Shown here: positions 19,166 to 26,733 of the stretch, one piece after another
Layout: every line of letters starts with the position of its first letter
Position numbering within the stretch: position 1 is the first letter of the stretch
From: Sinomonas humi
Lineage (GTDB): Bacteria; Actinomycetota; Actinomycetes; Actinomycetales; Micrococcaceae
Direction of reading: 5' to 3'
Assembly (NCBI RefSeq): GCF_000802235.1
Contig: NZ_JTDL01000082.1
Location: 124,001-188,000 of the forward strand
DNA length: 64,000 bases
The notes under the pieces: model-generated
What the model was told of the DNA's origin: nothing
Databases searched by the model: none
What the model saw: the letters and a program-made list of their open reading frames with translations, nothing else
Program-made: the position numbers and the translations under genes

Positions 19166-19750
19166 TTAGTCACGCGTCGCCCAACGCATCCTCAGCAGCT
19201 CTTCGAGTTCCTGCTGCTCCAACTGGCGGCGGCCTTCGAGCAGCTCTTGTTCGAGCCTAGGAATACGCCGCTTCTCGAGTACTCGCAGCCTGCGGCGAGT
19301 TCCCGAAAGCTCGGAAGCCAGAAGAAGCACCGCGCGGTCGGCAACCGCGCTCGCAGCCGCCGCGAACACGGCGTCACGGTGCGCGGCCACACATCGATGG
19401 AGCGACCAGCCGCCGCCGCTCGGTTCCAGTGGGGGAAGAACGCACTCGTTCCCAACCGGGTGAGCGGCGCCAAGCGTCGTGCCCCAGACGACGCCGACCG
19501 TTGCCTCCTGCTGGGAGCCTGCCTCGGCGAGGTGGTCCGCGCCGTCGAGCGCTTCCGCGCGGCGAAGCCATCGCCGGGCGTCCTCCGCGCGCTTCCGCCA
19601 TTCTTCGGCGGCACGTGCAGCTTCGGCTTCCCGCCGGCCCAGCTCCTCCGCGAGGATGCGCTGCTTCCGGTCGAGCATGCGGGCCCCAGCTTGGGCAGCA
19701 GAGAGCCGCCGTTCAGCGGCAACGATCGCAGCACGTCCAGCAGCCCTCAC
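19166..19750 (-). CDS. V/A-type ATPase subunit D (central stalk)
   Basis: A 194-residue, almost wholly helical protein: N-terminal long helix AAGRAAIVAAERRLSAAQAGARMLDRKQRIL and C-terminal coiled coil SGTRRRLRVLEKRRIPRLEQELLEGRRQLEQQ. The paired N- and C-terminal helices and the LLxxKR-like MLDRKQR motif mark the rotor shaft subunit D. GTG 19750 overlaps the stop of subunit B by four bases (GTGA); the open frame further upstream is only the shadow of subunit B. Last gene of the operon. Confidence 0.85.
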   Translation of the reverse strand: MRAAGRAAIVAAERRLSAAQAGARMLDRKQRILAEELGRREAEAARAAEEWRKRAEDARRWLRRAEALDGADHLAEAGSQQEATVGVVWGTTLGAAHPVGNECVLPPLEPSGGGWSLHRCVAAHRDAVFAAAASAVADRAVLLLASELSGTRRRLRVLEKRRIPRLEQELLEGRRQLEQQELEELLRMRWATRD

Positions 19751-21171
19751 GGAAGCTCGCCTTCCTCCGGAAGGTACTGCTCGACGAGTGCTTGCGGAAT
19801 CATGTTCAGCTCCCGCCGAGGGAGGCTGCCGAGCGCTCTCCACACCCTGTTCAGGGTGTCATTGATCTTTCGGGCCTCGGACCTGCCCTGGTTCAGGAGC
19901 TCTTTCTCGAGCATTTCCCGGTAGGCGAGGTAGCTCTGATCGGTCTCGCTCATCGCCGCCGTGCCGACGAGCTCGGCGAGCTCCGCCGTCTGCCGTGCGC
20001 GTGCGAGGGCGGAGAGTGCCTGTGCCGAGACGTGGAGGTGATCCTTCCGCGTTCGCCCCTCCCCTACGCCGCTTCGCATGAGCCGGGAGAGAGAGGACAG
20101 CACGTCGACAGGTGGATAGATGCCCCGCGCCGCGACATCTGCCGAGAGCACGATCTGACCCTCGGTGATGTATCCGGTGAGGTCCGGCACGGGATGCGTG
20201 ATGTCCCCGGCAGGCATGGTGAGCACGGGCATGATCGTGACCGAGCCCTCCCGGCCGCGCACCCGTCCGCACCGTTCGTAGATGCTGGCCAGATCACTGT
20301 AGAGGTAACCTGGGTAACCGCGGCGAGCCGGGATTTCCCCACGTGCGGCAGCCACCTCCCGAACCGCCTCTGCATAGCTCGTCATGTCCGACATGATGAC
20401 CAGTACGTCGACGCCTTCCTCGTACGCAAGGTGCTCGGCAACCGTCAAAGCGATTCGCGGAGTGAGGATTCGCTCGATCACCGGATCGTCCGCCGCGTTG
20501 AGGAACAGCACAAGCTCGGATGCCGAGGAGCGCTCCTCAAGCCTGTCCCGCACGAAGGCGATATCGGCATGGGTCATCCCCATCGCTGCGAACACTACGA
20601 GGAAGGAACTGCCGGAAGCCGTGGCCTGAGCTGCGATCTGGGTTGCCAGGTCCAGGTGCGCAAGGCCCGGAACGGAGAAGATCGGCAGCTTCTGCCCTTT
20701 GACTACCGTCATCAGTGCATCCACCGCGGAGATCCCCGTGACCACAGGCTCTTGGGGAGGTTCGCGATGGATGGGATTGAGGGGCCATCCGTTGATCGGC
20801 CTCACGAGGCTTCCCCCGACGGGAGGCCCGGAGTCCAGAGGCGCTCCGCGTCCGTTGCAGGCTCGTCCCAGCCATCCGCGGCCCACGGGGATGTGCAGCG
20901 GTTGGCCCCCGAACCGTACCTCGAGGCCCCCCAAGGCGAGCCCATCTGTTGGTTCGAGGACCTGGAGTGTCGCCAGATCCCCTCTGACCTCGAGGACCAG
21001 CCCGTGCCGCACCGCGCCGTCGGGCGAATCGATCTCGGCGAACTCGTCCCAGCCGACGCCTTCGGCTCCGCCGACCACGAGAAGGGGGCCCCGGAGTTCA
21101 CGGACGTCGGCGTGGGCGACAGACGGGGCCCGATCCTGGCCCTCTGCGATCGTCCGCGATCGGCTGCTCAC
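19747..21171 (-). CDS. V/A-type ATPase subunit B (non-catalytic)
   Basis: A 474-residue nucleotide-binding-fold subunit. It carries SAVDALMTVVKGQKLPIFSVPGLAHLDLA in the place of the P-loop; the GxxxxGKT consensus is missing, as normal for non-catalytic B subunits. It also has the B-type motifs MGMTHADIAFVRDRLEE, MSDMTSYAEAVREV and RRGYPGYLYSDLASIYERCGR. Together with A it forms the A3B3 hexamer in the cytoplasm. GTG 21171 overlaps the stop of subunit A by four bases. Confidence 0.95.
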   Translation of the reverse strand: MSSRSRTIAEGQDRAPSVAHADVRELRGPLLVVGGAEGVGWDEFAEIDSPDGAVRHGLVLEVRGDLATLQVLEPTDGLALGGLEVRFGGQPLHIPVGRGWLGRACNGRGAPLDSGPPVGGSLVRPINGWPLNPIHREPPQEPVVTGISAVDALMTVVKGQKLPIFSVPGLAHLDLATQIAAQATASGSSFLVVFAAMGMTHADIAFVRDRLEERSSASELVLFLNAADDPVIERILTPRIALTVAEHLAYEEGVDVLVIMSDMTSYAEAVREVAAARGEIPARRGYPGYLYSDLASIYERCGRVRGREGSVTIMPVLTMPAGDITHPVPDLTGYITEGQIVLSADVAARGIYPPVDVLSSLSRLMRSGVGEGRTRKDHLHVSAQALSALARARQTAELAELVGTAAMSETDQSYLAYREMLEKELLNQGRSEARKINDTLNRVWRALGSLPRRELNMIPQALVEQYLPEEGELP

Positions 21172-25401: not shown

Positions 25402-26308
25402 CGAGCACCTCGTCCGGCCGGCCGCCATGGGCCGCAGAAGCGAGCGCCGCGCGCAGGCGCCACGCATCCGAAGCCAGGACGGCGATGCCGCCGAGAACGT
25501 TGAGCGGGCCGAGCCGAGGCGCGCGGACCCAGGAAAGCGCGTCGTCCTCGATCCGTCGGCGTAGCTGCGCCTCGACGCGCCATCCGAGTTCGACGCTGTC
25601 GATCCGGCCGAGGATGGTGCGGGCCGACGGTGGGAGGGCCGCGCGGAGTTCTTCGAGCGTCCCGGCTGTCTCCCATGAGCTCCCGATCGTGCGGGCCGCC
25701 GCTTCCCGCAGCGCGGCAGGTGGGGTGGCGCGGCGGAGGAGAAGTCGGTCCTGCAGGACCAGGAGGACGACCGCATTGACCTGCCACTCGCGGGTCGCGG
25801 GAGCGACTGACACAAGTCGACGCAGCCATGCCAAAGTAAGCCGGTCCCGAAGTGGGAGGCCCTCTGCAGGCGACGCCCAAGGAGTGCGAGTGAGAGCGGA
25901 CCCGAGCGCGGCGAGCGAGGCGGCGTTGTCAAGCCTGGGCCATGCCGTGGCGAGAGTCCCGAGGTCAAAGGGCGGCGGCGCAGGCTGCCCCGCCAGACGC
26001 CGCGCGAGGCCAACGATGTTCTCACGCTCGAATCCGGCGGCAAGGGCCCTCGCGAGCCGGGCTCCCGAAGGCGGAAGCCACCCAGCGAGCACCCGCAACT
26101 CCCAGAGGACGGCGGCCCGCGTCCCGTGGGCGGCTTCCTCAAGCGAGTGCGCCTCGCGGACGAACCGGCCGTAGGCCGAGGGGGCGAGAAGCGCGAGTGC
26201 ATCCTCCAGCCCGGTCTGAACCGCGATGGCCTGGCACCCCCCAGCCCCGAGCCGCTGGCGGGCGAGGGCGCCGGCCCGCACCGCTGCCGCCGTCCACCCC
26301 GCGCTCAC
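25388..26308 (-). CDS. V/A-type ATPase subunit C (AC39-like rotor adaptor)
   Basis: 306 residues, mostly helical and Ala/Leu/Arg-rich, with repeating segments consistent with the V-ATPase subunit C/d family (AC39), which sits on the rotor ring and couples it to the D-F stalk. Recognition rests on length, helical pattern (for example FERENIVGLARRLAG, which matches the family's DxxNLxxLLR-type helix) and position between the G/H and I genes. GTG 26308 overlaps the preceding stop by four bases. Confidence 0.75.
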   Translation of the reverse strand: MSAGWTAAAVRAGALARQRLGAGGCQAIAVQTGLEDALALLAPSAYGRFVREAHSLEEAAHGTRAAVLWELRVLAGWLPPSGARLARALAAGFERENIVGLARRLAGQPAPPPFDLGTLATAWPRLDNAASLAALGSALTRTPWASPAEGLPLRDRLTLAWLRRLVSVAPATREWQVNAVVLLVLQDRLLLRRATPPAALREAAARTIGSSWETAGTLEELRAALPPSARTILGRIDSVELGWRVEAQLRRRIEDDALSWVRAPRLGPLNVLGGIAVLASDAWRLRAALASAAHGGRPDEVLDVVA

Positions 26309-26733
26309 GTTGTGGCCGCCGAGCGGAAGATCCGTTCAATCAGGCGCTGGACAGTGGCGGGAATGCGGTCCTGCCCCGAACGCTCCAGCTCGGCGGCTTC
26401 GGCGCTCGCCTGTTCCTCGAGCCGGGAATCTTCCTGAGCAGCCGCCGCAAGCACGGCTTCGTAGCTCCGGCGGCGGGCAGCGGGGCTCTCAAGCCGGGCG
26501 TGGGACAGCACGTCATCCGCAGCGGTCCGCGCCACGGCGAGCACCTGTTCGGACTCCCTCTGCGCATCGTTGACGAGTGCCTCGGCTTGCTCGAGTTCCG
26601 GGGCCAGTGCCCCGAACACGACTCCGAGTTCCGCGTCCGGGCCGACCGCGTCCATGGCCGGCACCCCGCTGCGGGCAGCGGGTCCAGGCGACCCGACAGG
26701 GCGGAATCGGTCCAGGAAGTTCGATCGGGCCAC
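26305..26733 (-). CDS. V/A-type ATPase subunit G/H-like stator coiled coil
   Basis: 142 residues: a disordered N-terminus, then a long charged helix (ELEQAEALVNDAQRESEQVLAVARTAAD) and a second helix ending RIPATVQRLIERIF, similar to the G/H subunit that pairs with E in the peripheral stalk. It is the first gene of the operon. GTG 26733 follows GGAGG by four bases; ATG 26655, with GGGGTG before it, would drop the disordered part. Assigned mainly from shape and position. Confidence 0.65.
   Translation of the reverse strand: MARSNFLDRFRPVGSPGPAARSGVPAMDAVGPDAELGVVFGALAPELEQAEALVNDAQRESEQVLAVARTAADDVLSHARLESPAARRRSYEAVLAAAAQEDSRLEEQASAEAAELERSGQDRIPATVQRLIERIFRSAATT

Follow-up and report, generated by a model that had tools for sequence, protein, structure and literature searches.

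In V/A-type rotary ATPases, the peripheral stalks are described as standing on the cytoplasmic N-terminal part of subunit a, also called I (PMC5758568, PMC6131620). Such an enzyme is not rare in bacteria as a companion of an F-type one, as the ProAD database paper reports one F- plus one A/V-type enzyme in 890 bacterial genera (PMC11738941). The actinobacterium Melissospora conviva, which resembles the case treated here in the presence of the operon, carries an extra A/V-type operon that the authors of its description read as a gain (PMC12451618). We analyzed a 64,000-nucleotide stretch of the Sinomonas humi genome (contig NZ_JTDL01000082.1 of assembly GCF_000802235.1, positions 124,001 to 188,000; hereafter the window), which carries a V/A-type rotary ATPase operon of nine genes on the minus strand, from 26733 to 19166, in the order G/H-C-I-K-F-E-A-B-D. 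The operon encodes a complete extra V/A-ATPase of the ordinary kind that is patchily spread, and the point worth following in it is a variant of the stator, the stationary part to which I and the stalks belong. The lobes of subunit I are named the proximal lobe and the distal lobe, and here I is shortened, which is the new point of this work and had been missed in an earlier note made from the DNA letters. The nine genes are as follows (lengths in amino acids, aa).

26305..26733, minus strand: subunit G/H, 142 aa; a standard coiled coil at residues 37-136, preceded at 1-36 by the conserved extension of the subfamily, with LDRFRPVGSPG
25388..26308, minus strand: subunit C (AC39/d type), 306 aa; from profile and AlphaFold model
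24067..25401, minus strand: subunit I (a), 444 aa, lacking both the coiled-coil arm and the distal lobe; from Pfam, alignment and model
23663..24067, minus strand: subunit K (c), the rotor, 134 aa, with the ion-binding Glu in AEGIAIYG; from Pfam
23434..23658, minus strand: subunit F, 74 aa, start ATG at 23658; from Pfam
22913..23437, minus strand: subunit E, stalk, 174 aa; from Pfam, barely past the cut-off
21168..22925, minus strand: subunit A, catalytic, 585 aa; from Pfam and motifs
19747..21171, minus strand: subunit B, 474 aa; from Pfam and motifs
19166..19750, minus strand: subunit D, central stalk, 194 aa; from Pfam

The complete I protein measures 429-468 aa in 24 of 24 loci of our first set of subfamily operons (starts chosen by a script) and 406-472 aa in 22 of 22 loci of a fresh set, compared with 622-900 aa, counted from stop to stop, in 54 of the 57 non-clade I frames that lie away from contig edges; the remaining 3 are fragments of a single broken gene (L127). 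The fresh set comprises 29 loci, whose membership was assigned by identity (56-62%) plus a short I where I was complete. All 29 were fetched and 28 scanned, and the latter yielded 24 loci with a G/H match and an upstream stretch and 22 with a complete I, there being no I match in L246, L254 and L255 and an I alignment that misses its start in L247, L253 and L259. Two loci were excluded from the counts (L148, the same record as L048, and L235, taken as a duplicate of L052), no G/H was obtained from L053 and L055, and in L055, the deepest row, I runs off the contig edge, so that this locus stands outside the short-I counts. The I alignment has a single internal gap, with the first 30-45 residues and everything from the GW-x-P segment onward retained, to which L050, L051 and L054 add 30-40 further retained residues. 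The I model (predicted local distance difference test score, pLDDT, 86.6; predicted template-modeling score 0.80; built with 25 sequences) consists of a small alpha/beta lobe and the membrane helices, and 394 of its residues align end to end with the 649-residue Thermus I (6qum_N; Z 24.1, root-mean-square deviation 4.2). Neither the alignment nor the model contains a Thermus-like coiled-coil arm with a distal lobe holding the stalks. The I of this subfamily thus lacks the arm and the distal lobe and retains the small lobe, and we file the enzyme as an arm-less variant of the superfamily. In the literature searched we noticed no description of an arm-less subunit I, although one may still exist in print, and viral relatives of I were not found up to E 0.001. 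At the other extreme of length, a metagenome-assembled genome (MAG) of Krumholzibacteriia has an I frame of 900 codons (L093:877-3576), with an N-terminal side ~230 longer than usual.

The G/H proteins of the subfamily are also distinctive. Their profile aligns to Thermus G from position 37 only, and each listed non-clade match starts at position 31 or later. The extension that precedes this point is the most conserved part of G/H, contributing L7, R9, F10, R11, P12, P16 and G17 to the 11 invariant columns, and LxRFRP is present in 23 of 23 first-set G/H proteins, while LxRFRPxGxPG was found in 0 open reading frames (ORFs) across 72 non-clade loci. The G/H extension and the loss of the I arm mark the same group, and the extension would substitute for the lost arm.

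All nine subunits could be named, as C was identified by profile and model, G/H by profile, and the other seven (D, B, A, E, F, K and I) by Pfam and NCBIfam, and the complete operon and gene order given in the earlier note are thereby confirmed; its statement that nearly all genes overlap by four bases is overstated, since exactly four bases are shared at 4 of the 8 junctions (GH-C, F-E, A-B and B-D), the others being overlaps of 14 bases (C-I), 13 bases (E-A) and 1 base (I-K) and no overlap (K-F). Pfam gave no match for the C and G/H genes. Profile comparison with the C subunits of other V/A operons recognized C as V/A subunit C (probability 91.6, E 8e-7), and its AlphaFold model (pLDDT 90.5) has the fold of Thermus subunit C (1r5z; Z 18.4, 291 residues aligned); searching solved structures by sequence with the C profile returned 0 matches up to E 1. 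The G/H profile matches Thermus subunit G at E 9.9e-9. The enzyme is of V/A type in each of its parts: A has the P-loop and the A-specific insert and B the arginine-finger motif (PF00006, PF16886, PF22919), D, F and C take the place of gamma and epsilon in the central stalk, the membrane part has an I with the channel arginine and a K ring with the carboxylate, and the peripheral stalk is of the E/G kind, with E near the Pfam cut-off and G recognized via its profile against solved structures.

The motor residues are kept throughout. The P-loop and GERGNE of A, SLSR of B, RLAAF and RLE[YF] of I, and the rotor-Glu motif of K are each present in 25 of 25 cases, SLSR being what we take to be the arginine finger. 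In four pairs, A, I and C have nonsynonymous divergence (dN) of 0.02-0.16 and synonymous divergence (dS) of 0.39-1.15. K has a single Glu in its C-terminal hairpin. The rotor ligands reported for the Na+ type are a Gln in helix 1 and a Ser/Thr following the Glu (PMC2359735). By eye, in an alignment without a Na+-enzyme control row, K has neither the Gln nor the Ser/Thr that accompany Na+, and we therefore predict from the sequence that the coupling ion is H+ rather than Na+. Ahead of the usual hairpin, K (23663-24067) and the sibling K proteins also have two N-terminal hydrophobic stretches, which end in an A-x-A-like motif and may be a cleaved leader.

The source genome (4.42 Mb, 156 contigs, completeness 100) has consecutive genes for the F-type delta, alpha, gamma and beta subunits on contig C88 and one copy of V-type A; an additional family member on contig C28 was read as the flagellar FliI. 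Since the genome also carries an F-type ATP synthase, the V/A-ATPase is an extra rotary enzyme, in support of what the earlier note had supposed. We queried 36 genomes for F1-beta, namely 35 carriers of the subfamily and one other V-type carrier (G986), and detected it in 35, above the family cut-off in 33, the single genome without it being 85% complete; among the good-quality genomes queried it was present in 34 of 34.

The explanation that fits best, to which we give a probability of roughly 60%, is an H+-coupled V/A-ATPase that works beside the F-type enzyme with its stalks held on an arm-less I, likely via G/H. Torque would take the usual route, through A3B3, D/F, C and the K ring against I. 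Because the arm is missing and the EG stalks cannot grip it, they would have to sit near the membrane, on the small lobe that I still has, where the RFRP-x-G-x-PG extension of G/H, as a putative docking segment, is the most likely holder of the stalk, and the peripheral stalks are perhaps fewer than the two of Thermus. Several observations weigh against this explanation: E and F barely pass their Pfam cut-offs (24.7 against 24.2 bits and 24.8 against 23.5 bits, respectively), of the 24 fresh members just 19 have LxRFRP or LxKFRP, with a closely similar motif in L233, and genes for universal stress proteins (Usp), which stand near many sibling operons, number 0 in the surroundings of the window operon (12001-34000). 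The arm might instead have been lost without replacement, the coiled-coil ends of E and G resting on the I lobe while the extension serves otherwise; the retention of the small lobe and the lack of the strict motif in some fresh members (present in 19 of 24) would agree with this, but the strong conservation of the extension and its coincidence with the arm loss would not, and we regard it as unlikely. The shortness of I, E, F and C relative to other bacteria could also suggest a decaying relic with broken stator parts. However, the short form is uniform across the subfamily and 9 of 9 frames are open, and the intact motifs (25 of 25) together with dN well below dS led us to reject the relic, which we consider highly improbable.

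The direction in which the enzyme runs is a related matter. It could be mainly a second ATP synthase rather than a pump, with a different gear ratio suited to low proton motive force, given that K has one Glu in its C-terminal hairpin, that the Thermus V/A enzyme is described as a synthase (PMC5758568), and that the Usp neighbours of kin operons fit low-energy states; this is doubtful in view of the F-type synthase in all 34 good genomes queried. With less weight than the structural reading of a V/A-ATPase on an arm-less I, we infer an accessory machine for which the role of ATP-driven proton pump or of standby enzyme (under stress or at low energy) is likelier than that of main synthase. A more far-reaching proposal, a new stator design in which I is arm-less, the holding role has moved to a docking segment of G/H and possibly a single stalk is left, within a standby proton motor that is exchanged among actinobacteria and kept for survival under stress or at low energy, is tentative and in its entirety improbable.

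Subunit A was found in 1 of 15 genomes of the genus, in 37 of 395 genomes of the family (6 of 32 genera including its own, with kin at 64-68% identity), in 15 of 394 of the class (its own copy, 13 at 58-62% and one at 48%) and in 94 of 396 of the phylum, where, apart from its own copy, one match (G421) reaches 63% and sits on a 3.2-kb contig of a 960-contig genome, the remaining full-length matches being at most 49% and fragments up to 51% identical. The 13 class matches were counted to the subfamily by tree (9) or by identity of 58-62% (4). Two further families gave 27 of 250 and 7 of 251, partly overlapping the earlier matches. Among the best 80 matches, the named kin at 55-66% are Arthrobacter koreensis, Demequina maris, Streptomyces morookaense, Rhodococcus rhodnii, Streptosporangium canum, Nocardia seriolae, Nocardia sp. 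alder85J and a Thermoleophilia MAG, beyond which identity falls to 49% or less. Twelve plasmid records have a subunit A match, and the best four (56-60%) are Streptomyces and Embleya replicons of 0.9-3.1 Mb. A 58-kb Pseudonocardia plasmid record (NZ_CP053565.1:21290-22825) has a V-type A at 45.6% identity, which hence belongs to another subfamily.

In a tree of 90 A proteins, 35 of 35 subfamily rows lie on one side of a branch with support 100 and a long stem, and other Actinomycetota V-type A proteins are placed elsewhere; judged from these protein sequences, the operon belongs to one actinobacterial subfamily that is monophyletic in the A tree. The window copy falls within an 18-row set of its own family, of Micrococcaceae type (support 96). 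As drawn, the trees put the subfamily beside three archaeal rows, a placement that we did not adopt because a tree constrained to join the subfamily to the bacteria that share its gene order is not rejected (approximately unbiased test p-AU 0.53, quick tree) and came out 1.24 log units better. Where the congener G014 has its LplA-like and major facilitator superfamily (MFS) flanking genes (85% and 80% identical DNA) 672 bp apart, the window has them 7739 bp apart, and tblastn shows no remnant of the V operon in the G014 gap; this operon-free site fits a gain here or a clean loss there equally. What G014 has instead at this site (L208:6785-7352) is a gene for a PemK/MazF-like toxin (PF02452), with a small ORF upstream of it that matches no Pfam family. 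As for marks of a mobile element, there is no tRNA gene in the window, and the 43 direct-repeat families of 17500-28500 include no clear flanking pair among the 20 shown. The G+C content is 69% in the operon and 67 and 68% in its 10-kb flanks.

The earlier note had said that the operon looks acquired, a reading that our observations support only in part. The patchiness (1 of 15 in the genus), the empty G014 site, the copies on plasmid records and the conflict around G273, which the V tree places with g9, g18 and g24 (100/99) and the F tree apart from them (82/78, unstarred), speak for acquisition as such. A recent event is disfavoured by the single family set (96), by the Spearman coefficient of 0.92 between V and F (beta+gamma) identities over genome pairs from 22 genomes, the pairs being non-independent, and by the deep branch of the window copy, at 64-68% identity to its family kin and with a terminal branch of 0.46 in the V tree against 0.12 in the F tree. 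We saw no sign of a recent transfer from any relative in the sample, the highest identity among the 395 family genomes being 68%. The same observations bear on old Actinomycetes heritage with many losses, as opposed to acquisition by this species: it would account for the single clade of family copies, the correlated identities and the long separate branch of the window copy, but it would demand many clean losses to leave 1 of 15 genomes in the genus and 6 of 32 genera in the family, and the plasmid copies and the G273 conflict are against it. We judge such heritage to have slightly less than an even chance.

Usp genes lie near the sibling operons in 20 of 42 first-set and 10 of 28 fresh loci, where 1.4 and 0.8 are expected from 162 matches in ~53 Mb of 12 genomes, an estimate to be read with the clustering of Usp genes in mind. 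In 12 of those 20 first-set loci, as read by eye, the Usp gene is immediately downstream of D on the same strand. As controls, we looked at 72 non-clade V loci, which come from other lineages, and at 8 loci from the same genus as the window, and Usp genes were found at none of them. The source genome has 8 Usp matches, of which 7 are listed on other contigs. In L049, L137, L138, L140 and L142, a small Usp gene right after D (PF00582 in L138) resembles a tenth operon gene, which the window lacks. Two sibling operons are situated in regions rich in Usp genes: in G394, at least 14 of 21 Usp matches share the operon contig (C2), and in G1108, 10 of 17 fall no more than ~80 kb from the operon (C1, near 6.02 Mb). 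On a Streptomyces fungicidicus plasmid, the operon is flanked by CBS-domain, Usp and P-type ATPase genes. For Streptomyces coelicolor, 8 of 11 Usp genes are reported in the OsdR dormancy region (PMC5069765).

Upstream of the operon there is one further feature.

26812..26827, minus strand: DevR/OsdR-like palindrome, 94 bases before G/H; score 12.0, matched by 1 of 200 shuffles

A scan of 26600-27000 for sigma-70 promoters and terminators found none. In the first set, 7 of 38 upstream stretches have a site whose score was equalled in no more than 10 of 200 shuffles, and 6 of 37 score at least 11 at -140..-30 against 0.23 expected, with none at -350..-240, the zone and threshold having been fixed only after the first-set shuffle scan. 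The palindrome is strong at some sibling operons (Streptomyces, Embleya) and lacking at most. With zone and threshold unchanged, 1 of 24 upstream stretches of the fresh set has such a site (0.16 expected, p 0.15), which does not confirm the DevR/OsdR box as a general control element. An exact-pattern scan with 3 mismatches expects 1.45 chance matches in the window, and the whole window contains 7 sites scoring at least 8. We treat the palindrome as a candidate site, a lead rather than an established element.

A subfamily that lacks most of the part of I on which the stalks stand and keeps the motor residues would reveal the minimal stator that can hold torque, and gives a direct way to ask what holds the stalks; it also raises the question of why bacteria bearing an F-type enzyme retain a second rotary enzyme. 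Compared with other bacterial V/A operons (Halanaerobiales, Chloroflexi, Oscillospiraceae and others; L060, L071, L104), the gene order is the same, with C before I, as in 9 of the 11 non-clade loci laid out (by ORF size, with C checked by Pfam in L060 and L071), and K likewise has extra N-terminal hydrophobic stretches; being common to these operons, the order and the stretches were both dismissed as new traits. What sets those operons apart is a full-length I (~634-653 aa) and a usual G of ~103-107 aa. The I model has its best fold likeness to the Na+-V-ATPase of Enterococcus hirae (8wci; Z 26.5 over 324 residues), from which the enzyme described here differs in having a K without the Na+ ligands and an I without the arm. 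With the V/A-ATPase of Thermus thermophilus (6qum, 5y5x, 1r5z) it has nine subunits in common, the C and I models matching with Z 18.4 and 24.1, respectively. The I of Thermus, however, has ~650 residues and an arm that carries both stalks, whereas here the arm is gone, G/H is extended, and an F-type enzyme coexists.

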